Source of the DNA: Ceratodon purpureus
Taxonomy: Eukaryota > Streptophyta > Bryopsida > Pseudoditrichales > Ditrichaceae
Assembly (NCBI GenBank): GCA_014871385.1
Contig: CM026429.1
Coordinates: forward strand, 12,871,783-12,935,782
Direction: 5' to 3'
Length of the DNA: 64,000 nucleotides
Numbering within the stretch: the stretch's first letter is position 1; the number at the start of each line of letters is the position of its first letter. The notes under the pieces are model-generated. The model saw only the letters and a program-made list of their open reading frames with translations, searched no databases and had not been told where the DNA came from. The translations under genes were made by a program, and so were the position numbers. Positions 6,545 to 62,115 of the stretch are shown one piece after another.

Positions 6545-7051
6545 TCAAGAAATCCAAGCAACTCTTTTTATTGATTGAGCCCGCAACGACAACAGCAACT
6601 GACTGACTCGGGCATACAAGTTAGTAATTACAAAATTGACAGAGAAAGAGTGAGCAGATGAGCAAACAAATCCTGTACTAACAAAAAAAACGAGACTCCC
6701 TCTCTCAAGCAAAAAAGCTCTCGAGTTTTCTAGCACCTGACGTCCTAGTACTGATGAAACCGTGATACCAGCTGCGTCCAAAGCTGGAGTCTTGAGAAAG
6801 GCGGCCTGGCTGCACAAGCCCAAGAGCAAGGGCCACGCCCCAAAGCCAAGCCAAGCCAAGCTAGTCTTCGATCTGGTCGCGGTTGGTCGCTGACGCCTCG
6901 TCCGTCGTCGGTTGGGGCTTCGCCAGAGTGGGCACTGCATTGCACTGCCCTGCACTGCGTGTGGGGTCACCGCCGCGTTGATGGTGTCATGTGGGGTCTG
7001 CGATGGCACCACCACGCACCACAATACAATACTACCGCACTGTAACTCCAC
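6545..7051 (-). other. 168-codon ORF driven by the duplicated segment, unproven
   Basis: An ORF starts inside the duplicated segment and continues past its end, with an AATAAAA signal on the same strand near its stop (plus-strand 6565-6571). The first ~110 codons are shared with the ORF at 42898-43356, with two apparent amino acid differences (Met/Val and Leu/Phe). The product is Cys/Arg-rich with no known motif. More likely it is a non-coding leader or a chance ORF than a protein gene, but the promoter-like copy plus poly(A) signal makes a short transcript possible. Confidence 0.2.
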
Positions 7052-7350
7052 GCACCTGCTTCACTGCGCTCTTTCCTTCCTGCCTTCTACTCGTGCAACT
7101 GTGGAGTCCGGCCCCTCCGCGGCTCCGGCTTACTTTGTGTCATTCATGCATGCTGCACTGGGGCTTGAAGGTGGCAGAAGCCAGACATGGGTGGTGGCGA
7201 TGGTGATGGTGGCGATGGTGGCTATGCTATGTTAGGCCAGGTGCAAATTGCGGCATGGTATAGTGTTGTCATTGGCCCATGATCGCCATCTCCATCGCCA
7301 TAGCGTGGTGTTAATCTACGTTAAGTTAATGCGCCTCCGACGCCACCACC
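6771..7350 (-). repeat. inverted copy of the segment at 42593-43182 (promoter-like)
   Basis: Read on the minus strand, this GC-rich segment matches 42593-43182 on the plus strand. From about 7145 down to 6771 the copies differ at only a handful of bases by eye; from 7145 to 7350 they have more differences and small indels. The match stops sharply at ...GACGCAGCTGGT on both sides. The plus copy lies upstream of the RING-H2 gene, so this may be a duplicated promoter and leader exon. It lies about 35 kb away in opposite orientation. Sequence match is certain; the promoter role is inference. Confidence 0.8.
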
Positions 7351-8190
7351 TCAACCTTTCGCACGCGTCCCCACTTTTCTGTTTCTTTGGCTTGTTTCTG
7401 AATTCTCCCTTTTTCTGAGTTGTACTTCTTCCTGAGGGTTTTCTGGTTTTTTTTCCTGCTATTGTCTTCTTTCTGCAGTCTTTTACTGGAATGTTTTCGG
7501 TGAATTTGGGTTATATGACCCAAATTTAGTATGTAGAATTCATCATGTAGGATGTAGAATTAATGTTGAGCAAGATGGGATGTTATGCTAAGGCCCACTC
7601 ATAAGTTCTATGAATAGTTCAATGGGTAGAATTTAACGTGCACTGATTGATACAATGGAGGCTTTATTTAGCTAAAGGTGAATAAAGGAGACAAGGAGAG
7701 GGATCAATAAATGTTGAAGAAAATTCATCTTGAGATAAAAGGTCAATCAACCATCTTTATATTCCTTCCAAAGTTGCTTTACTACTATTTCTTTCATTAT
7801 TTCATTTAGAGATAGATATATCTTCAAATTTTGGTTTTGTTTTTTTTCAGTATAAAAACTTTGATTCATAATATTTATATTCTCCTAGATGATGTGGCAC
7901 ATTCTCCTCATAGGTTTGATTAATTTAGACTGTTAGACTAAATATAATACATGCCTAAATTAGACTATAGTAGCTAATATGTAGAAGAGGAATCTTGGTC
8001 AAAGTCTAAATCTAGTTACTTAGAAGTCTTGTTTTTTGCCAATAATATTACAATTTTAAACCGATGCACTTGTTTGCTAAGATCTATAGTTGCCTTAATT
8101 CGGTTGTCTTTGTAATCATAGGATGCCCCCATAATATAGAACAATTTATCAATGTCTCAGTATCACCATTCAATTTATGTTCCAGGGTTT
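7351..8190. other. AT-rich spacer, no gene seen
   Basis: Only short ORFs without motifs and homopolymer runs. No structure recognised. Confidence 0.4.
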
Positions 8191-9392: not shown

Positions 9393-9520
9393 TGTGTTAG
9401 AAACTTCTTGTACTTAAAGCATCCCCAATGGCCTGCTATGCACTCCGTCTAAATTTGAATTTATCTTTGGACTCACTCAAAATTAGAAATTGAAATTACC
9501 ATCATTGAAAGCGCATTTAA

Positions 9521-10381
9521 CCCCTAAAGGACAATGTGGCAAAATGGGGCTATTTTGGAGTTTGGGCATGTACCTGCGGATGCAATTTGAATTCAAAATT
9601 TACGAAAATTGTAGTGAAAGTAGGCATTGGTGAGAGCTTCGTGTCGGTATTTTTTATTCTCAATTCCAATGTCGGAGTGAAAAGTTATTCATCTTTGAAC
9701 CGCAAAAGCTCCTCCAAGGGCAGTCAGTTAGCCAATGAGAATGATAGTGAATGCAGCAAGTTCTGCCCAAAACTGCCCAAAACTGCCCAAAATTACCAAA
9801 ATCTGCCCAAAGACAAAACTTTGAAATTCCACCAAAAATTGAGATTTTGATATTTTTCAAAAATAAAAATTTCTATGTATAGATAAGGCAGTAGAGCATG
9901 TTCCCACCGTTCGGATTTTTGGACCAATTTTTTTTTCATATGCTATTTTTATTGTCAAAAAACAGCCTTTGTTTGTGAATTTCAGTATACCCCCTAGCGG
10001 AAAATGATTTTTTTGGCAACCTTCCACAAATTTTTTGAATATGATTTTTTTATTACAATTAGCTAACTCAGTCTTCTTTGATGTGCATCAAAACCGCCAA
10101 AATCCATAATGCAAAAAAATGGTTTTTTGGGTCTTCAAAACTCTGCTAATCCCTTTTTGCGCAGGGAAAAAAACTTGATTTTCAACTTTGAACGTTATGA
10201 TCTTGCAATTGGTGAGGAATGAGTGTGTAAGATTTGGTGGACATGTAGACATAGAAGTTAGCTACAAGATCTTACGGTTAGATGTATTAATTAAGACCCC
10301 AACTTAGCAAAATCCACCTTGATTTGAAGAGTGGCTGTTTTCAGGCAGTTTTGATGAAAAATACCCTAAGAACTTTAGGGG
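9521..10381 (+). mobile_element. TTAA-flanked non-autonomous element, copy 1
   Basis: Flanked by TTAA at 9517-9520 and 10382-10385. Ends are CCCCTAAAG and CTTTAGGGG (9-bp perfect terminal inverted repeat). Length 861 bp. Internal sequence (GCCCAAAACTGCCC repeats, ATTCCACCAAAAATTGAGATTTTG, GTTCCCACCGTTCGGATTTTTGG, CTCAGTCTTCTTTGATGTGC) is highly similar to the reverse complement of the copy at 54857-55722 and more distantly to 38508-39311 and 39467-40386. The longest ORF is about 104 codons without transposase motifs. TTAA target duplications and C-rich ends fit piggyBac or Sola3 superfamilies. Confidence 0.85.
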
Positions 10382-10385
10382 TTAA

Positions 10386-10918: not shown

Positions 10919-13693
10919 TCAACCGTGCATGTTGCTAACAAAATTAACTGTACATCTAACTTTCTGGAATGTATTGTCTAGACGTTGCCAGGTTTTCCTT
11001 TGCTGCTCCCACAAGCTCCTTGCTTTTTCCTTCAGAGCATCTTGACTAACAATTGTGTCGGCATGAACCTTCAGAAATACCTGTAATAATGCTTGAATGA
11101 ACTGAAAATTCTGCATCATCACAAGCTCTGCCAGCAGGAAGTCCATCACCATACTAATCTCTTGAAGCTCCTCCGGATGTGCGCTGGCGTCCTCGTCTAC
11201 AATCTGCATCATTCGAAGGGTGGCATCCACTTCTGACGGACTAATCGACTTCAAATGATCTACTAAACTAGTATAGTTTTTGCTCTCTGCACATGAATAT
11301 AGCAATTCTAAGAAAACGCTCTGAAAGTCAACATGCTCTGATTTTCCCGAGCCACGGCTAACGGTCTTGCTTCCTCCTTCCACTGCTGATTTGTTCAATC
11401 CATCTTCACCAGGAGCAATAAATATCGGATCACCTGAAAGTGTTGGCATAGTAGGCAAAAAGAAGGGAGCTTTCTCTGGTTTCTTAGGAGGCGCAATAGG
11501 CTTGTTTCGGACCTTGATGATGTCCAAGTTTATAAGGCCCTTCCATTGGGTCTTGGGAAGCAGGGTAAGAGTGACAAGATGAGGAATCGATGGGCCCTTC
11601 ATTGCGGGTATCTCACCATCAATATCCATGGTTCCACGAGTACTGACTTCCACAGCAGCTACCTCTGGTACCTCCTCAGCATCTTCATCCACTTCATCTT
11701 CTTTGCTAAGACCCACGGTTGGCATTGATACAACCCTCACACCTTCACTAGCTTTCGTTGTCAAGTCCTCAACTCCAGAATACATTAACCTATTCGCCCA
11801 CATGTAGATCCCGTTACGATTGACGTGTGAAGTAGCCAGCATGTCCATACCTGGTGAGAGGGACAACGCTGTGACTGCTGTACCCAATTGCATCGCGTCT
11901 ACCTGCTTTGCAGCTATTACATCCCATACGCGAATAGTAAAATCCATAGATGACGACAGTAGCAGCTTCCCGTCTTCGCTGAAACACATATCAGTGATAC
12001 GATCAGTGTGACCAGGAAACCTCCGAACAAGACGCCCAGCAACCACATCGAACACTCGAAGCACCTTGTCATCTGCCGCAACCGCTATCAGGCCATTCCC
12101 TCGGTGAGCGGTCATTTTCCCCACTGGCGAACCCACTTGCAACGTGGATTTCAGGATCCGATTCTTGAAGTCCCACACCTTAAGTACTCCATCATATCCT
12201 CCACTCGTAAGCAGCGTATTTGTGCTATCGGAGGCGAGTCCATTTACAGCTCCATTGTGTGCATGCAAACGGCCAATCGCTGGGTCTTCATATATTCCCC
12301 TATGCAAACCTGACTGAAGATTAAACTTTTCGATCCTACCCCCTTCTGTGCCCAACACTACAACATCACCACTTGCAGCTATTGTACAGCTCTTGATAGG
12401 GGTTGGGGCGTCACTAGAGGGTCGAAGGATGTGCTCTCCAACTGCAAACTTCTGTAAACGCCACGAATATGCTGCAGTTGAATCCATATGACAGGTCACA
12501 ATATTACTCCAGTCACGCTCCCTGATTTCAACCGCATCAAAGGCAATCACTGGTGGCAGTTTCAACTCCTCTTCCTTGATGTGAGCACTCCGTGCCCGCT
12601 TCTGTAAATGCCCTTGTGAGAGTTCTCTACTTTGTTGATCCTGAATGGTGGAGAAAACCCTAAACGACCTGTCTTGACCAGCAGATAAAATATGCCTTCC
12701 GTTTCCATAATACCTAACACAAGTGGGCGGAGCACTGTGACCATTCCTGAAACGAAGCAGTCGCCCCTCCCCATCACTAGTATCAAAGATCCACATCTTC
12801 AAGGAATTATCAGCACCCCCACTGAGCAACACAGGCTCGCTAGCCAAAAACTGCAACGAAGAAATCTCTGAAATGTGGGCATCCTCCACAACAGCTTGCA
12901 GCTTCCGCTTCTCCAGATTCCAGATACTAATCACCCCTGTCGTCCCGCCAGCAGCCAAGAAAGGCTGCCCGTCCGTCCTGAACGAGAGTGCTGTAACAGG
13001 CCCTCTGCCTGTATGCGTAAAACTCACAACCGTCTCATCATAACGGAGATTATGCACATATATCTTACCATTGGCACATCCTACAGCTACTATATCAAGT
13101 GCCGGAGACGCCGTGCAGCAGCGAACAGGCGAATTCCACCCCTTAAACTCATGAACCAAACTACAAGTCTTAGTATTCCACAACTGTAAAGGCCCCTCTT
13201 CACTCCCAATGAGCACCTTATTCAGATACGTATCAGGGTGCATGATACACGTCGGCGTGAACGACTCCCGGAACTGCCATTCCCGAACGGGCTTCACCTC
13301 CACCCCCTCCTCCCCAGAAGCCGTCTCGAAAGCCTCCCACACACACAGCCGCCCAGACGCATCAATACTCAGAATCTGCTGCCCAAACTCCAGCAACAGC
13401 GTCAACTTAATCATATGCGCGCTCCACCGCGCCACCTGATGCGCCCGCCTAAACACCACGACATCAAACCCAGTCGCAACATAGGTAAAATCCCTGAGCG
13501 TCACCAGAGCTTGAATCTTCTTCGGCAGCTGCGGCCCCACGAACACGAGCGTCAGCTTGGCGCAATTGAACACCTGGAACGCATTGCCGACGCTGACGGT
13601 GACGAAATTCTCCGCTCCCCGTCGCTGCACGGCAAACGGCGTGGAATCGGTGATGTAGCCCAGTGCTCGAAAGGGCTCGAACATGCCCACCAT
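10919..13693 (-). CDS. UTP21: U3 snoRNA-associated protein 21 (UTP21/WDR36), intact and intronless
   Basis: Product is a WD40 protein of the small-subunit processome (UTP-B complex) in the nucleolus, needed for pre-18S rRNA processing. The chosen start (13693) gives 924 residues, close to the plant family size, begins MVGMFEPFRALGYIT as homologues do, and has a good initiation context (GCAGCCATGG). The frame is open upstream to an ATG at 13843, giving 974 residues, but those 50 residues look unlike the family. Visible: VSVGNAFQVFNCAKLTLV and FRRAHQVARWSAH near the N-terminus, two consecutive beta-propellers of WD repeats (LWNTK, IWNLE, MWIFD, VWDFK, VWDVI), an acidic linker (EDEVDEDAEEVPEV), then the C-terminal Utp21 domain ending in an LWEQQRKTWQRLDNTF helix region. 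No frameshift, stop or intron in 2.8 kb. Neighbours are transposons; no operon. Confidence 0.93.
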   Translation of the reverse strand: MVGMFEPFRALGYITDSTPFAVQRRGAENFVTVSVGNAFQVFNCAKLTLVFVGPQLPKKIQALVTLRDFTYVATGFDVVVFRRAHQVARWSAHMIKLTLLLEFGQQILSIDASGRLCVWEAFETASGEEGVEVKPVREWQFRESFTPTCIMHPDTYLNKVLIGSEEGPLQLWNTKTCSLVHEFKGWNSPVRCCTASPALDIVAVGCANGKIYVHNLRYDETVVSFTHTGRGPVTALSFRTDGQPFLAAGGTTGVISIWNLEKRKLQAVVEDAHISEISSLQFLASEPVLLSGGADNSLKMWIFDTSDGEGRLLRFRNGHSAPPTCVRYYGNGRHILSAGQDRSFRVFSTIQDQQSRELSQGHLQKRARSAHIKEEELKLPPVIAFDAVEIRERDWSNIVTCHMDSTAAYSWRLQKFAVGEHILRPSSDAPTPIKSCTIAASGDVVVLGTEGGRIEKFNLQSGLHRGIYEDPAIGRLHAHNGAVNGLASDSTNTLLTSGGYDGVLKVWDFKNRILKSTLQVGSPVGKMTAHRGNGLIAVAADDKVLRVFDVVAGRLVRRFPGHTDRITDMCFSEDGKLLLSSSMDFTIRVWDVIAAKQVDAMQLGTAVTALSLSPGMDMLATSHVNRNGIYMWANRLMYSGVEDLTTKASEGVRVVSMPTVGLSKEDEVDEDAEEVPEVAAVEVSTRGTMDIDGEIPAMKGPSIPHLVTLTLLPKTQWKGLINLDIIKVRNKPIAPPKKPEKAPFFLPTMPTLSGDPIFIAPGEDGLNKSAVEGGSKTVSRGSGKSEHVDFQSVFLELLYSCAESKNYTSLVDHLKSISPSEVDATLRMMQIVDEDASAHPEELQEISMVMDFLLAELVMMQNFQFIQALLQVFLKVHADTIVSQDALKEKARSLWEQQRKTWQRLDNTFQKVRCTVNFVSNMHG

Positions 13694-13871
13694 GGCTGCC
13701 AACCCTTGAGAGCACCCAGTCGTGAAAATTCTGGGATTGCGATCTATGACATGAAAGTGAAGACCAGGGATGCGATGCGATGCGATCAGTTGCAGCTCCG
13801 GAAGCTCCGATCCGGCGACATGGATGCCGAGAGGGAGACACACAACCTCGCTGATGATAGCCCTGTTGTGC

Positions 13872-13938
13872 AGGGTTTAGGGTTTAGGGTTTAAGGGATG
13901 GGTCGTGAGAGGGAGGTTCAGAGTTTAGGGTTTTAGGG
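13872..13938 (-). promoter_or_regulatory. telo-box cluster upstream of UTP21
   Basis: On the minus strand three consecutive AAACCCTAA-type units (13872-13897) and another pair (13924-13938) lie 180-245 bp upstream of the start codon chosen. Telo-boxes are known in plant promoters and leaders of ribosomal-protein and ribosome-biogenesis genes, so this fits coordinate control with other nucleolar genes. Not a telomere: only a few units, inside a gene-bearing region. Confidence 0.8.
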
Positions 13939-17881: not shown

Positions 17882-18820
17882 AGACTTGAAAATAAAATAG
17901 AACTATGGTATGTAATTTGATATTTAAAAAAAACTATAGGTTGTTATGTGTTGTTGCGGATGTTACGGATGTAGTTGAATAGGTTTTGTACATGATATAC
18001 TCCATGTTTTAAATAAAGTGACTTTAAATCAAAAAGTTGTCATATTCATGTTCAAGATCATTTAATAGGAATTTATAGAATAAACCTGAGTTTAATGACA
18101 AAAAACGAGAGGATATCAACATGTAATTGCACACACTAGGATCATTATGAATTAGTTGCCTTTCAAAAGCGAAGAGCCTACCCAAGCCCCCCTGGAAGCT
18201 GCGTTGTTCAAGTAACGGGCAGTCCTGCAACAACGTAGGTGCCTGACTCAAGCTCCAGCCGGGCAGAGTGGCTGGAGTGCTGGAAGTAAGCCCCACCCCC
18301 TCCCACAGCCACCCCAACGAGGCTCCATGGTCGAAAAGTGACCCCTCTATTCCTAGAAGAAAATACGGGTTGATGTTTTATCGCTAGCTAAACCGGTTGG
18401 AGCCTAGTGTGGCCCTCCTATGAGCTTGACGGTTCTTTTTAAGGCCACTGTATGAGTATTTGTTATTTTTTTGGTTTTTTGGACATTTTTTGGTTTTTTT
18501 ATTTCATTCATATTGTTTTTAGTATTTCTATAACTTTTAATAGGCTTTTTAGTTCCAGATTGTAGTAGATGAAATGGATTTGACTAAGGCATGAACGGAT
18601 TAAAATCACCAATACATTATCGCCAAATAACTTCTATTTTTTTATAAAAATTTGATTGCAGCACTAATTTTGGTTGGAGATTCTATTTAAAAAGATTAAA
18701 CATAGGGATGATAATCATGCTCTTTTTAGTGAGATTAATATTGAAATATATGGCTTTATGAAAATATTTCATACCACTAGTATGACTACATTAGATTTTT
18801 TTTTTAAACCAAGAGTACTG
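17882..18820. other. spacer; GC-rich patch at 18170-18420
   Basis: Mostly AT-rich. The patch at 18170-18420 (AAGCCCCCCTGG..., CCCACCCCCTCCCACAGCC, AACCGGTTGGAGCCTAGTG) stands out by composition and may be a short dispersed repeat, but I found no second copy in the window. Confidence 0.3.
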
Positions 18821-18822
18821 GT

Positions 18823-19188
18823 TTATAAAGCGCGGAAATACTCTGCACCATTTGGAACCCTAATCCTATGATGTCTCTCCACGTCTCTCAGAGCTCTTTG
18901 CAAATTAGAGGAGTAATCAAGTTCGTTTGACTTTGAATGTAGAATCACCAAGGTAACTTCAACATTGAATGCGGGGTCCACTGGTTTAAAAGCCATACAT
19001 AGTTTTACTTTGTCTTTGAAGGACATCATTCTTTTATCTTCATGGTTGCTATTAATGTCTTGACATATTCTTAAATTGATGCTTTGTTCCTCAATGAGAT
19101 GGAGACCATCATGATTGAAGAATGTTTGTTCAACTCCAATTTTAATTAGAAATGAAGCTTGCAATGGATAATATTGGCCACCAATCAA
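18823..19188 (-). CDS. unrecognised ORF of 121 codons
   Basis: This is longer than expected by chance in such AT-rich DNA. The product has a mixed hydrophobic/charged composition (SFKDKVKLCMAFKPVDPAFNV in its middle, IRVPNGAEYF at its end), no signal peptide, no membrane segment and no known motif. It may be a remnant of an old gene or transposon. Low confidence that it is expressed. Confidence 0.2.
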   Translation of the reverse strand: MIGGQYYPLQASFLIKIGVEQTFFNHDGLHLIEEQSINLRICQDINSNHEDKRMMSFKDKVKLCMAFKPVDPAFNVEVTLVILHSKSNELDYSSNLQRALRDVERHHRIRVPNGAEYFRAL

Positions 19189-19199
19189 CTACCACTTTA

Positions 19200-20700
19200 T
19201 TGATAAGGTAAAAGAATCTATAATTGCTAACATAATCTTTTTAAGCTAAGTACGAGAGTAGTATTCAATAAAAATATAATTTTTACTAATACAAAAAAAG
19301 ATTCATAAAATAAAGTTTTCATAATTTTATCCCTAATACTAAAGTCACTACAAGAAAATCTATTTTTTCAAAAATTCTAATTAAATACGGTCGCGCATTT
19401 AACTAAATTAAATATGGTCTTTCAATCAACCAAATTAAATTTTTATTAATGAAAACTCAAAAATAACAAAATTTATAGTACATTGTAATCTTAAGAACAA
19501 TATTTTATTTGCTTTATAAAAATATATAGATCAAATCCAAATTTTTCCACAATAAATTATTTCATTATTCAAAAAATGGTAGAAGATATAAGTTGTCTAA
19601 CAACATGAAATTGGTTATAACATCCTAGTTTAATATTTTTTGAAAAAAAATGTAGATAGTGGAATGCACCATGCTTAATAGAATTAATTTTTTTTGTTAA
19701 TAAAATCTAATGACCATCTATGTTCACAGATTTTTCATTTTTTTAGGTTATTGTATTTGATATTAAAGGCTTAACATTCACATTAAATAATAATAAATAA
19801 TAAATAACCACCAAATTCAAAATCAATCATCCTCATCTTTATTAACTGATTAAACTATTAAGTTATTGACAATCCAAGTGATAATATTTGGATCAATATG
19901 TTGATTTCTGGCTTTGTTTGTAAAAGTAGTAATAATATTCCAATTCTGAAATAATAAAAGTGTCACGGGAAGAAATATTTGGTAAAGAACTTAGTCAGAC
20001 TTGATAAAATTCTGTTACAGAAATCCCCATTCAAAGATTAATGAACAGTCAGAGGTATTTTTTAATTTTTTAAAAATTCGGTACAAACCTATTGGGTTTA
20101 CGGAAAAAACTACATTTTTTGTTCCTCTCAGTGCACATGAAATTTGAACTCAAGCAAAGCAAGAGCACACACAGAACTTGAAGGACTGAACCCAATGTGC
20201 TGTGTGTGACACAAATGTCGAAGTCAAGGATCTGATTCATCTGAATCTGGTGTATCAGAATAAAAGCATGACCCAACTCAACCAACACTCACAACACAGA
20301 CAGTGATCTCAACCATGTCAAGGAACACGTACAATACAAGAAATGTACATTACAGCCATACTATACTATTCCAAAACTGCCCAAGGTAAGGTATCTCAAA
20401 TATGTGGAATTGGTAGTGTATTTTAGTGAGGGAACTGAAGGAATTCACACAAAATCACACCCTTCATTTTCATAATCCTTTCCTTGACTTCAATACTTCA
20501 ATACTTTTTGTACCACATCGCTTGTTTCAACTTCAGACAATGTAGGAAAATTTTAGGTGTTACACATTTGATCGACCCCAAGCCAAATCACTGCCTCTCA
20601 AGCTAAAATCTTGCACCTGTGATTTTCCATAACGCTTAGCAAAACAAGCTCACGGAAGGGTGTACCGAAGATTCTGATACAGGATTATCAGAAAACATAA
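19200..20700. other. AT-rich region, no gene seen
   Basis: Only short ORFs. Nothing recognised; the 3' end may hold distal promoter sequence of the SIP1 gene. Confidence 0.4.
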
Positions 20701-26929: not shown

Positions 26930-27285
26930 TGTTTGACATTATTTTGAAAAGAACAAAAATCATTATTTTTCTAATTTTAACATTAAGATCTTCAATTATA
27001 TTATTGTACTAGATAGCTCAATGAATTTCATCATAATCAACCATAGAGATAGAAGATTATAGCGATTGAAATTTGAAAACAAACTTTTTTGACACAATTT
27101 TTGACTAGGTCGTCACACTCTAACTTTATTTCCCTTCAGTTTTTTGCATTATGCATTTCAGAGTCTATGGTGCATGACAAAAAAGACTAAGTTAGCTTAT
27201 TGTATAAAAAAATTATAAACTAAAAACAAGTGTAGCATGTTGAAAACAATATTTTTATTGAATTGAATGCAAAAGAATGCTAATT
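26930..27285 (+). mobile_element. fragment of the TTAA-element family (related to copy 4)
   Basis: About 350 bp aligns with 39540-39860: AAAAATCATTATTTT..CTAATT, GATCTTCAA, GAGATAGAAGATTATAGC.ATTGAAATTT, AAACAAACTTTTTTGACA, TTTTGACTAGGT, and AAGTGTAGCATGTTGAAAACAATATTTTTATT. No terminal CCCCTAAAG or TTAA ends are seen, so it is a truncated piece. Confidence 0.7.
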
Positions 27286-27535
27286 TAAGCTCAAAAAGTT
27301 CTACCCGTTTGAAGAGTGCCCTAGAATGTGACGACACCAATTTGTCAACAAGATAGTCCTTTGGAAAATACAAAACTGCCAGCTGATTATTGCTAGCCTC
27401 ATTTGATTTCGAATCTCACGAAAGAAAAGAAAAAAAATTGCAAAATCACAGTGTGCATGTGGTTTAGATGTATATACGTACTTAATTGTAAAATTATATT
27501 GTCCTAATAATAAAGCAGACAAAAAAGAACAAGGC

Positions 27536-28723
27536 ATGTTAGTTCATAGACAAGACAACGGAAAGGTATTTGTATTCAAGATGTCAGTTGACCGTCCTGA
27601 GAGTGGCGTAGATTTGGTGAAGCGGATGCAACCGGGCGGTGATCTCCAGGACTGCTGGATCATGTTTGATCACGTGAAGCGTGTTGCTAGCTGGACCACC
27701 ATCGTATGCCAGGTGTACGACAACAAATACTGCAAAGTAATGACAATAGCCCTTTGTGACATGCAGTCTCAGGATGCAGAAGCGCAAGAGTTATTTTGGG
27801 TTCAATTGAACAGAGTGATGCGCAAAAATGGAGTGAAGAATACAAACTTTAATGGTTTTATGGCTGATAGAACCGGAGCGAATTGACACGTTGTCCAAAA
27901 AGTATACGGCAGTGGAGATCCTTACGTACCCATGGAGGACAGAGTGCGCACATGTTTGTTTCATTGGACAAAGTGCCTTCAACAAAAGACCTCAAGACAC
28001 ATACTACTCGGATTCCAAGACCAATACATTATCATGTGCAAAGGATGGAAGAACTCAAGACGAAGCAGAGGCGCAGTACAACATCATTCGTCGATGGTGG
28101 CTATCTTGACGGAAGAAGGCAGGCGGACACTGAATGATTGAAGGTGTTTTGGCACTTCCGGTACAGGAAATGGGGCGGCTCCATGCAGCTGGTATGTTTC
28201 ACAGGATTACTTACATCTTTGTTTTGCAAAATTCTGTTTTTAGTTAGTGTCGCAAACATCATTGGTAATTTACAAAGCTTTAATTTATGTAGGACCTCAC
28301 TCTTGACGAGAGAGCGGACATGCCATCTTGCAACCTGGTAGAAACAATCCATAACCAATGGCTTGAGCAATCTAGGAATACGATGACGTGTCTATATGAA
28401 GCTACAGTGGACGACCTCATCTCCACCTTCATGCAGTGCACAAACTACAGATTCTGGTTGAAAGGAGGGATTCAAAGGAGGAAAAGGATCGGATAAGGCT
28501 GAGCTGCGATTACGCCATGCCCAACGCTCTGGAGACCCCAAGCTGATTGCTGAGGCAGTGAAGTCATATCTAGGGGCTGAAGATCTTTTGACCAAGAAGC
28601 GAGGCCTGGAAGGTGCAGAGATTTTTGGTTCTCCAAGACGACGGGGACCTCAAGGTTCACCTACAAACACAAAACTTGGAGCTAGTCAAAACCAAAGTAT
28701 AGGATTCAAGGTAGGAGTATGAG
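27536..28723 (+). pseudogene. transposase-like gene of an uncharacterised plant family, broken
   Basis: One frame runs 27536-28140 with TGA codons exactly where a Trp is expected (27884-27886, after RTGAN, and 28135-28137, after TLND). Visible motifs: GGDLQDCWIMFDHVKRV, CQVYDNKYCKVMTIALCDM, FNGFMADRTGAN, PMEDRVRTCLFHWTK, HFRYRKWGG. After a frame change an intron-like gap (GTATGT...TTATGTAG, about 28189-28293) precedes DLTLDERADMPSCNLVE, TVDDLISTFMQCTNYRFWLKGG and a Lys-rich tail (LRHAQRSGDPKLI..., KSYLGAEDLL). I know this set of motifs as a repeated, uncharacterised protein family in seed-free plant genomes; it looks like a DDE or MULE-type transposase but I cannot place it firmly. Confidence 0.6.
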
Positions 28724-30128: not shown

Positions 30129-30641
30129 AAACCTACATTTGATGACTAATTTGAATGAATTAAATACTAGATGAAAGTAAAGAGGATTCGGACCTTGTAG
30201 TCGCTAATGAATCTTTCTGCGTCACCGGAGCCTGCAAGGGATGTGCACTACACATGCAGTTCTTAGTCAGAAACTTTGATTCAGAATTGCTTTACTCGTT
30301 TGAAAGCTGGGACGTTGAACCGTTACAATAGTTTTCACCTGTATGGTCCGATTCCGAGCAGTAGACCCCCGGTGACGACCCGAATGTGCTGAATGATGTG
30401 GTGACAATCGAAGGTATGTGGAAGTTTTGACATAAGGAGAAGCAATACAAGTTACACATAAATTTTAGCTTCCAGCCCACAAGTCGAGCAATAGCTTAAA
30501 CTTACCATTATAGGTCGACTTACAATTACGATTCATTATACACAATTACAAAGAACGATTTAATGTTCATGTCAATGATTGGGAAGTGCAACACACTGAA
30601 TGAAAATAAAGTAAATAAGCTGTCTATTTCAGGGTTCTTAA

Positions 30642-30866
30642 CCCCTGAAGGGACTATGAGCCCTTTCCGGCCGTACATACTGTATGCTATTTTCACGTAT
30701 TTGAGTAGCAAGCACTTTTCAAAGCTTTCCGTGAGTAACTGCAATATTGTGGGCGACAGAAAAACGCATTCAACAGTATACACTCATTTCAATTACTGCA
30801 AAATTACAGCTGCGGTATGAGCTACAATACGGGCCGTATGCTCAGACCTCAAGGGACGTTCAGGGG
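30642..30866. mobile_element. 225-bp TTAA-flanked MITE
   Basis: TTAA at 30638-30641 and 30867-30870. Ends CCCCTGAAGGGAC and the inverted GGGACGTTCAGGGG. The terminal inverted repeat (CCCCTGAA) is close to CCCCTAAA of the larger TTAA family, but the interior (CGGCCGTACATACTG, ACGGGCCGTATGCTC) is different and partly self-complementary. No coding capacity; a plausible second, shorter family mobilised by the same kind of transposase. Confidence 0.75.
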
Positions 30867-30879
30867 TTAATTAATACCT

Positions 30880-33973: not shown

Positions 33974-36534
33974 TTAGTCTTCTTTCTTCTCCATTTGCTT
34001 GATCCACCTCTTCACCATAGCATCAATTTTGATGTCCTCTTTCTTTTTCCTTTTTTCTTCCCTTGCTTTCCTCTTCTCCTCAAGTGTTGCATCCTTTGCA
34101 TTCTTAGCATCCTCTTTTTCTTTATTTTCATTCAAAAATCCTACACTTGTTATCAGCCTTCCATGACAATGAAGAGTGTTGGTTCTCTTCCTAGAAGTAG
34201 AAGCATGGAATTGAGGGATTGCCAAAATCTGTGATAATGTCTGACCTTTGCTCTTATGTGTGCTCTTTGATTTGTTTGTAGGAGCGGGGACATGAGGCTG
34301 ATGGGAGGAAGGAGCTCCTAGTTGCACACTAGGCTGCTCATGTGGGACACTAGGCTCTCTTGAGATGTGATTTTCTTCTTCCATGTACTAAGAATACCAT
34401 CCTTGGTAATGGACAGAAATATCCTTGGTAAGATCAATTGCTGCTACATCTCCTTGAGCTCCATCATTGTTATTGCTACACACAATAAGATGACAATAAA
34501 AATCAATTGCATGTCTCAATAATGCTTTTTACATCCCAAAATAAACATAGAGTGGATTTGGTGTCATTAGCTAACCTTGTGGTTTTATACACCTGACTTG
34601 GTGTAATTTTTTGAGTCTCTTCAGCCAATGATAAGTGTGACAATGATTGTGATATATCTTCACGATCCTCTTCAACTAGGACACTTGTTTTCAGCTTCGT
34701 TGCAAAGGACCCAAGCGGGGTGGCATCAACTTGAGGAAGCTAAGGAAAGAGGCTGGGTATAGGTGACAAAATGGGAGGGCTTCCAAGATGGGAGAAATAG
34801 TTAGGCATGGGTAATTGCAGATTTGGAGATGCTATTTCACCTTCTCCTTGAGGTAACTTATTCCTTACATAAGCCTGATCAGCACCTAGCTTCAAATCCA
34901 TTGTTGTTTTGTCAATTGGGTATAAACATGTTGTAGAGAAACCAGCCCTAATGCTTTCTGGTTTTAGTGCCTTAGCAAGTGCTCTTCATGCCATTTCAGC
35001 TAAGGTAGTCTTCATAGTTGAACCCTTTGCCCAATTGGGATCCTTTTTCATTTTCTCCATTTTCTCCATTTTCTCATGTGCTAAATTCAATTTGAAGGGA
35101 TGGAAGATGGCTACATCTAGAGGCTGTAATTCATGAGTTGAATGGGCAGGGAGGGTAAGAATCTCTAACCCAATCTCTAAACCATGGTCATACAGCCTCT
35201 TTTGTGACATGGCTGCAATGACCATCTAGGATCAGCAAATGTTTATTCTCCCTAGAGATTCCCTTTGGAACATTGTCCTTGAAATGCTGCAGCCATTCTA
35301 AGAATATCTTAGAAGTCATTTATCCATTTTCTTGCCAAGACATTGCTGCATTGGGCTCACAATTCTTTATATATGGTAGCAGCACCTATTTTCGGACACT
35401 TAAGGAATTCACTATACTTGTGGAGGTGGAATGAGTGGCTTCCTATTTTACAGTGATTAACAATAAGAAAAAACAAAGTTTCCCCATTTTTGGGATATTT
35501 ATAAGCACTTACAATAATAACTACAAATTTTGGAAGTGACCAACATAGGTTGACCTATAGCCGGACACCCTTTTGCATGTACGCATGGGATACATTATAG
35601 GTAATTATAGGGTCATCAAATCTCCACTGCAGCAAGAATCTGGGGTGTACGCCTTTAGGGGGGGCCGCCTTTAGGTGCTTACACCATAATCAAGGATGGG
35701 CCTTGTTTTCTTCTTGAAAATGTACAGGTCGGGGATGGAGGACCCTGCTGCATTAACACAAGTCATGATGCTCATCCACTCCCTATTATTTGCTATGGTA
35801 TGTCTGACTGACCTGCTGCCCTTTTTTGCCACCACTTTGATTGTTGAGTTCCCCCCTCCAGCACTCACTCCAGTCTCATCTGAGTTCCAGATGTGGCTAG
35901 GTAGAAATTCATGTGCTGAATACACCTATTCAAGTAGGTTGTAAAAGAAGGTGGCTGAATCTCTATTAAGTCCTAGTGCCCTCTTCATCTCTAGACCATC
36001 AGCACACCTCAAAATAATAGTAGGATGTCTCTTCATAAATCCATCCCACCATTTTTGCCCTGGAATTCCATCTTTAAATGGATGATGCCTTGGTGCATTC
36101 CTTAGAATAGTTTGAATGGTGCATTTGAGCATATTCAATGTCACACACAAGGCCACCTTTTGCATAGAGAAGCACCATTCCACTAGTGCCAGCTCTTCTA
36201 CTTCACTTAAGTATGTTTGGTGTCCAATCTTCTTTGTAGATGTCTTGCCATTCTTCCAATCTTGTATGGTTGATGGGGGGATGCCATACAACTCTCCAGC
36301 TTGTCTAATTGAGAGCCTTTTAGAGTTAACTGCATCTAAGGCAAACCTCATAGACTCCTCTGACCATGTGCCTCTTGTGCCATATGTTCTCTTTCTTGTA
36401 GGTTTGCATGAAGGAAGATTCTGTCTAGGATTTGGTGGACCTAAGTTACCTTGAGGGCCACTTCTAATCTTCTTTGGGACTTGTGCATTCGTCCTCAGCT
36501 GCTCCCAGGGGTGTAGAATGGGATGCCTAGCCAT
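33974..36534 (-). pseudogene. pogo/Tigger-type (jerky-like) transposase, decayed
   Basis: Read on the minus strand: an N-terminal Psq-type helix-turn-helix (SIRQAGELYGIPPSTIQDWKNG, about 36330-36260), a CENP-B-type HTH (GQKWWDGFMKRHP, about 36065-36025), a TAG at 35928-35926, then IWNSDETGV (first catalytic Asp, about 35885) and NREWMSIMTCVNAAG. A 299-bp insertion at 35381-35679 interrupts it. It resumes with NCEPNAAMSWQENG, stop, SKIFLEWLQHF, HLLILDGHCSHVT (second Asp, about 35230), a frameshift, GLEILTLPAHSTHELQPLDV (third acidic site, about 35160-35105), and ends with a Lys/Glu-rich tail (34080-33974). This is a Tc1/mariner-superfamily DDE transposase of the pogo clade. Several stops and shifts: dead copy. 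Confidence 0.85.
35381..35679. mobile_element. 299-bp MITE-like insertion in the Tigger transposase
   Basis: It begins AGCACCTA and ends TAGGTGCT (8-bp perfect terminal inverted repeat). Conserved transposase sequence stops on one side (RPILDYG) and resumes on the other (NCEPNAAM), so it is an insertion relative to the family. The flanks suggest a TA-containing target, not resolved further. Confidence 0.6.
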
Positions 36535-38500: not shown

Positions 38501-38507
38501 TAATTAA

Positions 38508-39311
38508 CCCCTAAAGCATCAATTCAACATAAACGGATTGATTCAGGGTTTAGTCAAGCTCTCCGTAAGTCAATTTTTATTGGATGAAGCTGTAAATATG
38601 AACAATGATCATATTATTTTCATAAATTCTTCATACTTTAGGAAATGTTTGCAGTCAAAGTTTGAAAACACTATTAAGGCATAGTAAAATCTGTCCAAGA
38701 CTGCAGTATGTGCTCAAAATCTACCGAAAATCAATTAAATCACAGAACCTTCAAAAATTCACCAAAAATTGAGATTTTACTTTTTTTCAAGTTTTGTTTT
38801 TTGTGCATGTGAATACAGTTTTAAGGCATGATTTCACCGCTCGGATTTTCAATCCAATATTTCTCCATTTGCTTTTTTTACTATGAAAGACCGTCCTTTG
38901 TGTTTGAATTTCAGCATACCTCTATATGAAAAATCAAGCATTTCGTTAGGTTTTATAGGTCATGTGAGGGTAAAACGTGCATAGACATATTCCTAATCCA
39001 CTTAGGAATAAGAATTTGAAGAGCCTCACATCAAATATGCTTTTGAAATTGATTTTTTTGGCTCACAAAACACTTCAAACCCATTTTGCAACAAGAGAAA
39101 TAAACTTTTTTTTCTTTTCTAACTTTAAACATTATGATTTCACAAACGGTAAGGAGGTTGAATTTAAAATTTAGGGTGCATATACATGCACAAGTTATTT
39201 CCCACGGTTATTTCCCCTTAAAATACATCAAGACTTGAAAACTTATACCTTGTATTGAAAAAGGCGAATTTTGAAGGTTTTTGGTAGTCTTGAGGCCTTT
39301 CAACTTTAGGG
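38508..39311 (+). mobile_element. TTAA-flanked non-autonomous element, copy 3
   Basis: TTAA at 38504-38507 and 39312-39315; ends CCCCTAAAG and CTTTAGGG (one G shorter). 804 bp. Same orientation as copy 1 with recognisable shared blocks: TTCACCAAAAATTGAGATTTTA, CACCGCTCGGATTTTCAATCCAATAT, CCGTCCTTTGTGTTTGAATTTCAGCATACC, CTTTAAACATTATGATTTCACAAACGGT. More diverged than copies 1 and 2 are from each other. No transposase. Confidence 0.75.
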
Positions 39312-39466
39312 TTAATACGTAAATCTCATACAAGTTTTGTATTTCATTCATGTATTCTCGGATTTTCATCTTGGATATAATCCATATTCTTGTATTCAGT
39401 AGTCATTTGCCAGCATGAGGTACAATTCTAATGATCTCCACATTTAAGTTTTACCCTTTGTGTTAA

Positions 39467-40386
39467 TCCCTAAAGTTCCTTGACTATGTTTCACCAAAAA
39501 ACGCTCCAAAACTGCCATTTCCAATATAAAAAGCTTCAATGACTAAAAAATCATTATTTTCTAATTCGAACAATAAGATCTTCAACAAGATTATTTTAGT
39601 AAACAGCTCAAAAAATTTCAGTATAATCGACCGTAGAGATTAGAAGATTATAGCAATTGAAATTTTAAACAAACTTTTTTGACAAGAGTTTTGACTAGGT
39701 TGACACACTCTAACTTTTTTTTTCTTAGGTTTTTTGCATTATGGATTTTGGCAGTTTTTGGTGCATGTCAAAGAAGACTAAATTAGGGAATTTCATTAAA
39801 AAAATTACACCAAAAAGTCAAGTGTAGCATGTTGAAAACAATATTTTTATTAAGTTGAATACATAGGAGTGTTATATCTTATTTCTTTCCTAGAAATTCC
39901 ATTATTCAATAAAATCCCAATCTAAAAAGTCAAAGTAAAGATTGATGTCCATATTTTCATTGAAAAGAAGAAAAAACCTAAAATAATACTTTTTCTAACT
40001 TTTATGAAGGAAAGAAGATGTTTTTTTAGTACACTGCCCGAAACGGTGAGAAAATTTTGATATTTTGTGGAGTGGACATTATGCACTCAAAGTCGTATTT
40101 TTTTGGAAACCTCAAAGATGACATCATGAAGTATTTATAGAAATATGTTTAGAAGTAATTGATATATTTAGCATGGCTGCCCGAATTGCACATTTAATAG
40201 CTTTTTCCTCTTCGGGTACCATAACTACTTTTATAAATGTCCAATTGAAAAAAAGTTAGATTCCCTCAAAGTTTTTGTTATTGCCTACATTCACAAAAAG
40301 TTTCAAAAAATCTCAACTTTAATTGAAGTCACAGGTACATGCCCGAATTTAAAAAAACCCATTCTAGGACAATGGTCCTTTAGGGG
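39467..40386 (+). mobile_element. TTAA-flanked non-autonomous element, copy 4
   Basis: TTAA at 39463-39466 and 40387-40390; ends TCCCTAAAG and CTTTAGGGG. 920 bp. It shares the AGGACAATGG..CCTTTAGGGG end with copy 2 and the CCAAAACTGCC and CATTATGGATTTTGG blocks with other copies; its left half is also present as the fragment at 26930-27285. No transposase ORF. Confidence 0.8.
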
Positions 40387-40390
40387 TTAA

Positions 40391-42592: not shown

Positions 42593-43182
42593 CAGACGTG
42601 GTAGCGTTGGAGGCGCATTAAGTTAAGTTAACGTAAATTAATACGATGCGATGGCGATGGCGATGGTGCTCATGGGCCAATGACGCCGGGATGTCATGCC
42701 GCAATTTGCAAGGGGCCTAACATAGCATCACCACCATCGCCACCATCCCCACTACCGATGATGTCTGGCTTCCGCCACCTTCAAGCCCCAGTGCAGCATG
42801 CATGAATGACACAAAGTAAGCCGGAGCCGCGGAGGGGCCGGACTCCACAGTTGCACGAGTAGAAGGCAGGAAGGAAAGAGCGCAGTGAAGCAGGTGCGTG
42901 GAGTTACAGTGCGGTAGTATTGTATTGTGGTGCGTGGTGGTGCCATCGCAGACCCCACATGACACCATCAACGCGGCGGTGACCCCACACGCAGTGCAGG
43001 GCAGTGCAGTGCAGTGCCCACTCTGGCGAAGCCCCAACCGACGACGGACGAGGCGTCAGCGACCAACCGCGACCAGATCGAAGACTAGCTTGGCTTGGCT
43101 TGGCTTTGGGGCGTGGCCCTTGCTCTTGGGCTTTTGCAGCCAGGCCGCCTTTCTCAAGACTCCAGCTTTGGACGCAGCTGGT
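42593..43182 (+). repeat. plus-strand copy of the segment at 6771-7350; probable promoter/leader of the RING-H2 gene
   Basis: GC-rich segment in inverted, near-identical match with 6771-7350. It ends at GCAGCTG|GTGCGG, a donor-like site, where the two copies diverge. It lies about 2.7 kb upstream of the RING-H2 start codon on the same strand; a non-coding first exon ending here and an acceptor such as TTGCTGGCAG at 45707 would give a 5' UTR intron. Sequence match is observed; the role is inference. Confidence 0.6.
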
Positions 43183-50889: not shown

Positions 50890-51588
50890 TTCCATTAAGG
50901 TTGGAGCACCTTAATGCGAGGAAGAATATGATTTTATAAAAAATATCAAGTGTAGAAAAAAAAGACTACGGAGGAAAGAGACTACGGAGGAAGAAGTTTT
51001 TAATTTTTTTCCATTAAAAATGAAATATATTTATTTTTAATTAACTCTCTGTAAATATCCATGCTTGTCATATAGACTATCCTAAAACTAAAAAGAAAAG
51101 CTCCACTCTTGGAGCATTGTGTCACCCAATTCCGTGACCTTGTAGGGACTAAAATGAAGAAGGACACAATTCAGTTATGGGCTTCAGCAATAATAAATGA
51201 GGACTTAGTTTTCACCAAAAAGCAATGAAATTTGGACTTAACGTGTATCCTTCGTAGCCGTGAAGTGGTCAATGCGGTGGACAAAGAACAAACTTGTGCG
51301 TGATTTGAAAACCAAGGTCTAAGCAATTGTCCTTGTATTGTCAAGTTATTACAACATCTCTTCTTCATGCACATTTTAAAATGTTAATGTCGCACTCTTG
51401 TACTTTGCTACTCACTCATCTTAGACCATTATAAGCCGCGTATTCTGACCAAATAGAATACATGAGCTATGTCGGTGTTCCAAATTATACTAAATTACCG
51501 GCTCCTAGAGACATGCTAAAATTGTTTGTCATGTGCCTTAATGAATTTGAATTATAAGAACTTATGAACTAAAGTATCAAGCTATGTA
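50890..51588. other. AT-rich spacer, no gene seen
   Basis: Nothing recognised except short ORFs. Confidence 0.4.
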
Positions 51589-51589
51589 T

Positions 51590-51855
51590 TGTTATGAACT
51601 GGTGTGTTCCTAACAAGTATAGTTGCTTAATCGTTACAATTACTTAAACGGTTAGTCTTTCGTCTTCTTTTAAAACCTATGTGAGGAGGGTTGTTCTTCA
51701 CACGACCTTCTCAAAATACAAGCAAGTTGATTTTATTGGCAATCACATGGTTTCATATTAAGTTTTTACATGTTGAATCATTGATTAGATTATGCAATTG
51801 AAGTGAGCAATGACCAAGGTCTGTAGATCCTCAACATAGTTCAACTCACAATTCC
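51590..51855 (+). repeat. 5' LTR of the Ty3/gypsy chromovirus
   Basis: Starts TGTTATGAACTGG and aligns over about 245 bp with the 3' LTR at 58388 (shared blocks include GAGGAGGGTTGTTC and a long identical run from CTTCTCAAAATACAAGC to AAGTTTTTACA). By hand count roughly 12 percent of positions differ. The exact 3' border is uncertain. Confidence 0.7.
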
Positions 51856-54544: not shown

Positions 54545-56360
54545 ATAGAAATATAAGAATACATGGGCTCCAAGGAGATTTCACTCCCCTCACAATACAA
54601 TGATTTACAGAGAGCATTCATTGATGAGGCTTTGAATGAATTACCTCCCTACAATTCATCAAACATAAAAATAGAATTTAAAGGAGGGCAAGAGTCAAAG
54701 AACATAGGATTGCAACCCATGTCTCTACAAAGATTGGAAGAATTATGGAAATACCTAGATGAGAATTTAGATAAATGATGGATCCGTCGATCCAAGTCTA
54801 TAATTTCGGAAAAAGGATGGGTGTATCAAAATATGCATTGACTACCATAATGTTAACCCCTAAACAGCCAAGGGTGTTTTTCATCAAAACTGCCTGAAAA
54901 CAGCCCCTCTCCAAAGCAAGGCGAATTTTGCAAACTTGGGGTCTTAATTAGTACATCTAACCGTAAGATCTTGTAGCTAACTTCTATGTCTACATGTCCA
55001 CCAAATCTTTCACACTCATTCCTTACCAATTGCAAGATCATATTGTTCAAAGTTGAAAAGCAAGTTTTTTTCCTGCGCAAAAAGGGATCAGCAGAGTTTT
55101 GAAGGCCCAAATAACCATTTTTTTGCATTATGGATTTTGGGGGTTTTGATGCACATCAAAGAAGACTGAGTTAGCTAATTGTGATAAAAAAACCATATTC
55201 AAAAAAGTTGTGGAAGGTTGCCAAAAAAATCATTTTCCGTTAGGGGGTATACTGAAATTTACAAACAAAGGCCGTTTTTTGACAATAAAAATAGCATATG
55301 AGATACTTTTGGATTTAAAATCGGAACTGTGGGAACATGCTCTACTGCCTTCTCTATACATAGAAATTTTTATTTTTGAAAAATATCAAAATCTCAATTT
55401 TTGGTGGAATTTCAAAGTTTCGGCTTTGGGCAGATTTTGGCAGATTTTGGCAATTTTGGGCAGTTTTGGGCAGAATTTGCAGCATTGACAGTGGCTGTGA
55501 GCTTGCCCGAAGTTTGGCTGAATGCAGCTTTTGACACTCAAAACCTCGTTACTTTTTTTCAGTATGTTAAATAAAATAAAATAAAATAAAAAAATCTGGA
55601 CAAACCTCTTCAAAATGCCTACCTAAATTATTTTTTTCAAAGATTTAGGAATTAAATTGGAATTCTAGGAACCTGCCCAAATTTTTAAAAAAGCCCATTC
55701 CAGGACAATGGGCCTTTAGGGGTTAATAAAGTCATGGTACAAAGTCGATATCCTTTGCCACTAATTCTAGAGCTTATTGATAGATTGGTGGGGGTATTTT
55801 TTTACTAAATTAGATATTCAACAGCTTATTACTAAGTTTGTATGGCATTGGGCCACTAGTTTAAAACGGCTTTTAAAACTCAGTATGGCTTATTTGAATA
55901 TTTAGTCATGACGTTTAGATTGACTAATGCGCCGGCCTAGTTTCAATCTTATATGCAGGAATTTTTTGGAGACCTTCTTGACATTTTAGTAGTCATATAT
56001 TTTGGTGATGTCCTCATGTTTTCAAAAATATAGAGGAGAACCAACAAGTAGTGCGAGATGTACTTCAACGCTTATAAAAACATGCTTTGTACGCTGAGGA
56101 ATCCAAGTGCCAATTTCATCGTGAATTGGTTAAATTTTTAGGGATGATTCTTTTAGACCAGGATTTTGCAATGTGTGAAGATGAAGTAAAAACTATTAAA
56201 GATTGGCCAACACCAAAAATGGTAAAGGATATTAAAGAATTCCTTGGCTTTCCTAATTTTAATAGCCGATTTATTCTTGACTATTCTAAGATTGTAGTAT
56301 CCCTTACAACTGTGATAAAAAAGAGCATGAAATTTGAATGGGCGTTATCAACAGACCTAG
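54545..56360 (+). pseudogene. reverse transcriptase region, interrupted by the TTAA element
   Basis: The left part ends ...CIDYHNVN at the insertion; the right part continues from 55727 with the RYPLPLI-type block of finger/palm, FEYLVM(T/S)F, then YFGDVLMF where YxDD is expected (so the catalytic motif is damaged), and on to DEVKTIKDWPTPKMVKDIKEFLGF (56175-56260). Multiple stops. The insertion splits the domain between two conserved blocks without loss of retroelement sequence. Confidence 0.8.
54857..55722 (-). mobile_element. TTAA-flanked non-autonomous element, copy 2, nested in RT
   Basis: TTAA at 54853-54856 and 55723-55726; ends CCCCTAAAC and CTTTAGGGG (one mismatch). 866 bp. It is the reverse complement of copy 1 (861 bp), with most of the length clearly alignable and long near-identical runs. 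It interrupts the retroelement's RT frame; leaving out the element plus one TTAA joins DYHNVN to KVM..RYPLPL, the normal order of that motif. Longest ORF under 100 codons. Confidence 0.9.
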
Positions 56361-56371
56361 CATTTAGATAA

Positions 56372-56730
56372 TTGGTATCTAGATTTTCCAGATCTCCGAT
56401 GCTAATTCATCCTATCTTTGATTGTCCTTTCATTGTGGAAATCAATGCATTTGACTTTGCAACATGTGCTATACTTTCACAACAAAGAGATGATGGATTA
56501 TTGCACCCTTGCGCATATCAAAGATCTAAATTGTCCGCGGCCGAGCAAAACTATGATATATATGGTAAAGAACTGTTATGCATCGTGCAAGCATTCTAGG
56601 ATTGGCAGGTTTATTTGGAAGGATCTCCTCATGAAGTAAGTGTAATTTTTTATCATACAAATTTAGATTACTTTCTTTCTACCAATCAACTAAACCGCCA
56701 GCAAGCTCGATGGTTGAAATTTCTATAAGC
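56372..56730 (+). pseudogene. RNase H region of the chromovirus
   Basis: Reads [49 protein letters not shown], stop (TAG where Gln is expected), DWQVYLEGSPHEV and LNRQQARWLKFL, the typical plant gypsy RNase H. A first-site Asp-to-Asn-like change (VEINA for VETDA) is visible. Confidence 0.85.
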
Positions 56731-58375: not shown

Positions 58376-58387
58376 AAAGGGGGATAA

Positions 58388-58650
58388 TGTTATGAATTAG
58401 TGTATTCTTAACAAGTACAGTTGCTCTATTGTTACCGTTACTAAAACTCTTAGTCTTTTGTTTTTTTGAAACCCATGTGAGGAGGGTTGTTCGTCACGCA
58501 ACCTTCTCAAAATACAAGCAAGTTGATTTTATTGGCAATCACATGGTTTCATATTAAGTTTTTACACGTTAAGTCATTGATTAGAATATGCAATTGTAGG
58601 GAGCAATGATCAAGGTCTGCAGATCTTCATACGTACAGCTCAAAAGATGA
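58388..58650 (+). repeat. 3' LTR of the chromovirus
   Basis: Starts TGTTATGAATTAG directly after the polypurine tract and aligns with the 5' LTR at 51590. The end is placed at about 58640-58650 where the alignment fades. Confidence 0.75.
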
Positions 58651-61396: not shown

Positions 61397-62115
61397 CAGC
61401 ATTTGCTTAAATTATTCCTTCCATGCTGCAACAACATTCTCACCATTTTATGCCACGTATGGCTACCATCCAACATTATCCTTTAAAAGTCCTACAAATT
61501 CAACAATCCTTATTGTTGAAGAAAGAATTTGCCACTTACATGGTGTACATGAAGAGGTGAAAAATATGATAAAATTGCAGGAGAGCAAGCTAAACAAAAC
61601 TATGACAGACATGTTCAAGAACAATCTAGTTTTAAAGTTGGTGATAAAGTATTACTCACGCATAATAATATTGCTACAACACAAGAATCTAGAAAACTAG
61701 CACCAAAGTTTTTAGGACCATATCCTATTATAGCTAAAATATCCGACATAGTATATAAGTTAGTGACTACCTAAAACACTTCGCATCCATGACATTTTTC
61801 ATGTATCACTTTTAGAGAAATATTGACAGAATACTATTCCTAGCCGTAAGTACAAACATCCGCCACCAATTATAACTCCATAGGGGGATATTAAATGGAA
61901 AGTTTATAAAATAATGGATTCGCGCTTTAGCAGTGGCGGCAAAAATTCTAGTATCTTGTCTCTTGGAAAGACTATAGACCTGAACAAAATTCATAAGAAC
62001 CTGCAGAGAATTTAAAAAATGCTCCAGAAGTAAAAGAATTTATGCGTGAGTAATACTTTATCACCAACTTTAAAATGATATTCCACCAAACACTGAGACT
62101 TAAAAGGGGGGATAA
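61397..62115 (+). pseudogene. Ty3/gypsy integrase C-terminus fragment, plus strand
   Basis: On the plus strand: the TTLCHVW/FYATYGYHPT-type block (61440-61480), EERICHLHGVHEEV, then a degraded KLAPKFLGPYPI..LVT.LKTLRIHDIFHVSLLEKY-type block (61690-61830) and a PPPIITP..EWKVYKIMD chromodomain start (61860-61920). It ends in a polypurine tract (AAAAGGGGGGATAA, 62102-62115). It lies back to back with the minus-strand RT fragment. Confidence 0.75.

Follow-up and report, generated by a model that had tools for sequence, protein, structure and literature searches.

The piggyBac transposon, whose seamless excision restores the TTAA target, is a main tool for seamless genome engineering; native piggyBac elements are documented mostly outside plants, and some repeat classifications for green plants may include piggyBac. 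The animal elements, exemplified by piggyBac of Trichoplusia ni (6x67) and piggyBat of Myotis (9c0f), share with the moss elements described here the duplication of a TTAA target and ends that start with CCC, and their transposase is of the same DDE_Tnp_1_7 type, which in the moss is found in the partner elements and in which three Asp columns are conserved. Reference piggyBac is 2472 bp long (PMC10813416), whereas here the host is a plant, the complete elements measure 5.1–6.8 kb and their frames run to about 1000 amino acids. According to that article, plants are among the organisms from which piggyBac has been isolated, and its ends usually start with CCC; the four 5′ motifs named there do not include the CCCCT of the moss elements, though CCCCT starts with CCC. 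The piggyBac-type MITEs of animals, such as mPok1 and mPok2 of Daphnia Pokey, are likewise short and lack a transposase, and full-length piggyBac elements presumably move them; the moss family differs from them in its length of about 870 bp, its conserved interior, its plant genome and a visible split into subfamilies. Among land plants, the fern Ceratopteris richardii also has piggyBac-annotated repeats: a table lists 1230 fragments totaling 122 kb, and this table, which describes neither ends nor transposases, is the sole mention of piggyBac found in that text (PMC6890710). The first-pass annotation held piggyBac to be rare or unreported in land plants; this is only partly right, since "unreported" is contradicted by the fern table. 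Among the titles and abstract openings listed from the open-licence literature, none describes complete piggyBac elements from a land plant.

The window analyzed here is a stretch of 64,000 nucleotides from the moss Ceratodon purpureus (C9:12871783-12935782), and the genome searched comprises 362,488,568 bases in 151 contigs. Element A of this window lies within a decayed reverse transcriptase frame of Ty3/gypsy type, arranged as follows:

54776..54852, plus strand: part of the interrupted reverse transcriptase frame that precedes element A (..CIDYHNV), to which 12 of 12 fetched relatives align
54853..54856, no strand: left TTAA of element A, one copy of the target duplication, placed by the empty site
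54857..55722, plus strand: element A, 866 bp, very probably a non-autonomous piggyBac-type element, without transposase, ends CCCCTAAA / TTTAGGGG
55723..55726, no strand: right TTAA of element A, second copy of the target duplication, placed by the empty site
55723..56400, plus strand: downstream part, reverse transcriptase region (..NKVMVQSRYPLPL..), decayed, RVT_1 at E 8.7e-4, which is below the curated cut-off

The first-pass annotation had described a TTAA-bounded element of 866 bp that lacks a transposase. Its coordinates are exact, including TTAA at 54853-54856 and 55723-55726, and we agree that element A codes for no transposase because the longest stop-to-stop frame in the consensus of the A family is only 111 amino acids. 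The terminal sequences are CCCCTAAAC... on the left and ...CTTTAGGGG on the right. Both ends start with CCCCTAAA and thus with the CCC of piggyBac inverted terminal repeats, and the perfect inverted repeat of this copy, TTAACCCCTAAA / TTTAGGGGTTAA, is 12 bp long counting the TTAA. Element A is AT-rich (35% G+C) and contains a run of 10-base units resembling TTTTGGGCAG.

The interrupted retrotransposon provides the empty site of the insertion. Two repeats of about 247 bp that are 87% alike (51587-51833 and 58385-58629) lie around it and may be its long terminal repeats. When the flanks of element A are joined with a single TTAA, they read ..CIDYHNVNKVMVQSRYPLPLILELIDRLVG.., and the earlier proposal that removal of the element plus one TTAA restores the reverse transcriptase frame could be compared with related retrotransposons. 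A genome search with the downstream flank gave 37 matches, in which the window itself is perhaps counted, the best relatives being about 70% identical; 12 of these were fetched as 260-base pieces (68–71% identical). The spacing at the junction is the same, without a gap, in all 12, in agreement with the proposal, and the relatives have one tetramer (TTAA in L073; TCAA, TGAA or TAAA elsewhere) where element A has two copies of TTAA. We therefore conclude that the insertion gained 870 bases, including one TTAA copy, and lost none. The claim of a 4-bp TTAA duplication stands insofar as no target bases were lost, but the empty site of element A is not the direct evidence for which it had been taken, as it fits a 2-bp TA duplication equally well.

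Element A is accompanied in the window by four further TTAA-bounded elements and one fragment:

9517..10385, minus strand: element B, 869 bp including both TTAA, A family, 91.7% identical to A over 639 bp
26955..27282, plus strand: decayed D-like fragment with no ends left, 82% over 332 bp
30638..30870, no strand: element E, 233 bp, TTAA-flanked, ends CCCCTGAA, interior unrelated to A–D
38504..39315, minus strand: element C, 812 bp including both TTAA, an older relative that in reverse orientation is colinear with A
39463..40390, plus strand: element D, 928 bp including both TTAA, older relative, both ends matching the full-length element PB49 described below

In a self-comparison of the window, the similarity of A and B begins precisely at TTAA, and TTAA is present at all 10 ends of elements A–E. 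Elements C and D are separated by 147 bases; not all of the ends are perfect, D starting with TCCCTAAA and C finishing with CTTTAGGG. When at most one mismatch is allowed, the window has 11 occurrences of the motif TTAAYCCCTAAA, where 1.25 would be expected (none of 100 shuffles reached 11), and nine of them are element ends. A screen for TTAA followed by 8-base inverted ends returned six pairs, against a mean of 0.34 and a maximum of 2 in 100 simulated sequences; four of the six involve elements A–E, one of them joining the outer ends of C and D. The two that are unrelated to A–E lie at 61632-62073, a TTAA-flanked inverted repeat inside retroelement-like sequence that looks like a rearrangement, and at 18687-19244. 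The window also contains an inverted repeat pair of about 590 bp (6767-7352 and 42598-43182) that is 93% identical, G+C-rich and unlike the TTAA elements, as well as a UTP21/WDR36 homologue (10922-13876, minus strand) in a single uninterrupted frame of 985 amino acids, with no introns seen in the coding part.

Genome-wide, a search with element A found at least 41 places (3182 first-look candidates, the best 40 of which were scored); B is not among the 41. Thirty of them were fetched for inspection of their ends. TTAA is present at 57 of the 60 ends, and the three exceptions, TTTA, ATAA and TTGA (L016, L024 and L030), are each one base off. The flanks of different copies have no mutual similarity at E 1e-10 and no fixed base beyond TTAA. 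The choice between a 4-bp TTAA and a 2-bp TA duplication is settled because the TTAA recurs at these 57 ends in unrelated flanks, and on the same observation the TTAA-specific insertion that had been read from element A extends to its family. The first bases are CCC in the 30 copies with few exceptions (CAC on the left in L029; altered on the right in L024 and L012). The consensus built from 31 copies has ends that match each other at 13 of the 14 positions next to TTAA (CCCCTAAA[C/G]GCCCA), and 29 of the 31 aligned copies differ from it by 1.8–6.7%; L013 (13.2%) and B (15.8%) belong to other subfamilies. In L004 and L013, the left flank ends with ..TTTAGGGG ahead of TTAA, and these copies therefore seem to have inserted into the TTAA that closes another element. 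No copies of element A were found in the viral contigs, prokaryote genome contigs and phages that were searched, and Rfam gave no match at the gathering score.

The same genome is rich in piggyBac transposases. A search with PF13843 (DDE_Tnp_1_7) gave 998 candidates, and all 116 scored matches, with E-values of 5.3e-84 to 4.2e-73, exceed the curated cut-off; 93 of the 116 have no stop codon inside the match, and the open frames range from 390 to 1207 amino acids. No match to PF13843 was found in any of 14 control genomes. Six of 30 fetched transposase loci (L031, L032, L033, L036, L050 and L051) have a correctly oriented TTAACCC end within 1.5 kb. Four of the 116 loci, a non-random choice picked for a visible end or for homology to A, were extended, and all four are elements of 5.1–6.8 kb with paired TTAA-CCCCT ends:

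C7:9685898-9691421: PB49, full-length piggyBac element, 5524 bp
C3:8651442-8656568: PB50, full-length piggyBac element, 5127 bp
C3:24418643-24423772: PB51, full-length piggyBac element, 5130 bp
C2:17857099-17863874: PB37, full-length piggyBac element, 6776 bp

The PB49 frame of 1012 amino acids, whose first Met is codon 147, matches positions 4–347 of the 349 of the DDE_Tnp_1_7 profile (E 2.4e-79). Its protein is a distant sequence match, at E about 1e-28, to the solved piggyBac proteins and aligns with both piggyBat 9c0f (E 1.2e-28) and piggyBac 6x67 (E 5.1e-28). Three Asp columns of these two proteins are kept in PB49 (IDEmm / MDNFFTS / GVDVADQ), which we take to be the catalytic residues of piggyBac. 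Transposases of the piggyBac superfamily have a C-terminal, cysteine-rich zinc-binding domain; in the PB49 frame a Cys/His-rich tail is visible, and no Pfam zinc model matched it at E ≤ 0.01. Near-identical transposase loci occur: L053 and L058 are 99.2% identical over 3200 bp, and L056 and L059 are 98.1% identical over 4129 bp, a similarity that extends over all of the fetched sequence and may reflect a segmental duplication. Homology breaks were located in five locus pairs, for L031/L032 two bases beyond a TTAA-CCC end and for the other four elsewhere. Nested in PB37 is an element of 929 bp (L037/L067, G000:C2:17858205-17859133) that is flanked by TTAA on either side and has the ends TTAACCCCTAAATGC.

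The small and the full-length elements are linked by their ends. The right end of PB37 is 81% identical to A over 79 bp, and up to 85% identical over 78 bp to other copies; its left end has 18 of the first 20 bases of the family consensus, with little similarity beyond. The ends of PB49 match D at both ends (77% over 62 bp and 75% over 96 bp) and at an inner block, and they also match the right end of B, at 72% over 207 bp, and that of A, at 75% over 75 bp. The transposase frame of PB37, like that of PB49, is downstream of the end that corresponds to the right end of A. Because their ends match those of PB37 and PB49, the small elements can be described as piggyBac ends that enclose other interiors. 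Among the four of 116 transposase loci that were extended, we found no full-length element with ends more than 90% like those of A. With ends that are 72–85% similar, PB37 and PB49 are relatives of the small elements and not a proven source of A. The first-pass annotation had suggested piggyBac or Sola3 transposition, expected the genome to contain an autonomous partner and recommended a search for longer relatives that encode DDE_Tnp_1_7 or a Sola3 transposase and have the same ends. The piggyBac suggestion is supported by the abundance of PF13843 transposases and by the alignment of the TTAA-CCCCT ends of complete elements with the ends of the window elements, and the search recovered PB37 and PB49 at the similarities just given. 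The expectation of a partner holds for the existence of piggyBac-coding relatives, but the very source of A is not proven by ends that are 72–85% alike.

Given the TTAA duplication, the CCC termini and the presence of piggyBac-coding elements with homologous ends, we are highly confident that element A belongs to the piggyBac superfamily as a non-autonomous, MITE-like element and is moved by the transposase of a full-length piggyBac element. In the mechanism we propose, a DDE_Tnp_1_7-type transposase made by such an element elsewhere in the genome would bind both ends of element A, excise it at TTAA and paste it into another TTAA, with duplication of the target. Transposases of the PB37/PB49 type, or a closer relative among the loci that were not fetched, would move the A family, presumably by cut-and-paste chemistry, and may be active today.

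Kolobok is another superfamily that duplicates TTAA and has been reported from green and red algae, so that movement of element A by a Kolobok transposase has to be considered; however, the Kolobok termini are 5′-RR..YY-3′ (PMC9587614) and therefore do not fit the 5′-CCCC ends of the A family. As these ends are, in addition, common to piggyBac elements, we regard a Kolobok origin as very improbable. Sola3 also duplicates TTAA, and Sola elements are present in plants, but a Sola3 assignment for element A is not needed when piggyBac elements of the same genome have homologous ends, and we give it hardly any weight.

The window itself offers one further candidate for the autonomous partner. A broken gene at 27407-28690 (plus strand) belongs to a large protein family without a Pfam model, whose full-length relatives have about 720 amino acids up to a likely splice site and are predicted to contain an N-terminal ubiquitin-like fold, a GCM-like zinc domain and an ISCth4-like DDE domain. 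The gene is downstream of and close to the D-like fragment 26955-27282, and the predicted domain of its relatives is transposase-like; against a partnership, the sequence read shows no flanking TTAA-CCCC ends, the nearest folds (ISCth4 and, weakly, Hermes) together with the GCM-like zinc domain point to a MULE-type enzyme, and the ends of A are shared by piggyBac elements instead. We consider it very unlikely that this gene belongs to the autonomous partner; on the predicted folds, its protein family is perhaps a MULE-type transposase family. A frame at 35929-36534 (minus strand) with Psq and Tc5-type DNA-binding helix–turn–helix domains is probably the remnant of a pogo/Tigger-like transposon. 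Among the 25 listed of the 61 Pfam families matched by the 145 window frames of at least 78 amino acids, there is no DNA-transposon transposase, which leaves the absence of one from the window unproven.

That element A duplicates TA only, as Tc1/mariner elements do, with a mere preference for TTAA and a repeat starting ACCCC, has next to no probability: its own empty site would allow this, but in place of the free outer bases of a 2-bp TA duplication the fetched A-family copies have the outer T (left) or outer A (right) at 59 of 60 ends, against a chance of about 0.30 each next to TA.

With element A assigned to piggyBac, the mechanism is one already known, and what is new is the land-plant host and the abundance and apparent intactness of the transposases in its genome. 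Whether C. purpureus hosts a hugely expanded native piggyBac lineage that was recently active or still is, with elements of 5–7 kb, uninterrupted frames of up to about 1000 amino acids and a large family of TTAA elements of about 870 bp moved by them, we judge to be evenly balanced; some pairs of transposase loci are 98–99% identical over 3.2–4.1 kb. If true, the moss would provide a piggyBac system that is native to a plant and genetically accessible, on a scale that, among the matches listed, is undescribed for land plants. A moss with many uninterrupted piggyBac frames and clean TTAA elements allows activity tests of native plant piggyBac, as well as study of host tolerance and of the role of the long N-terminal part of the transposase. 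Our results also suggest that TTAA elements may remain unclassified when plant repeats are annotated.
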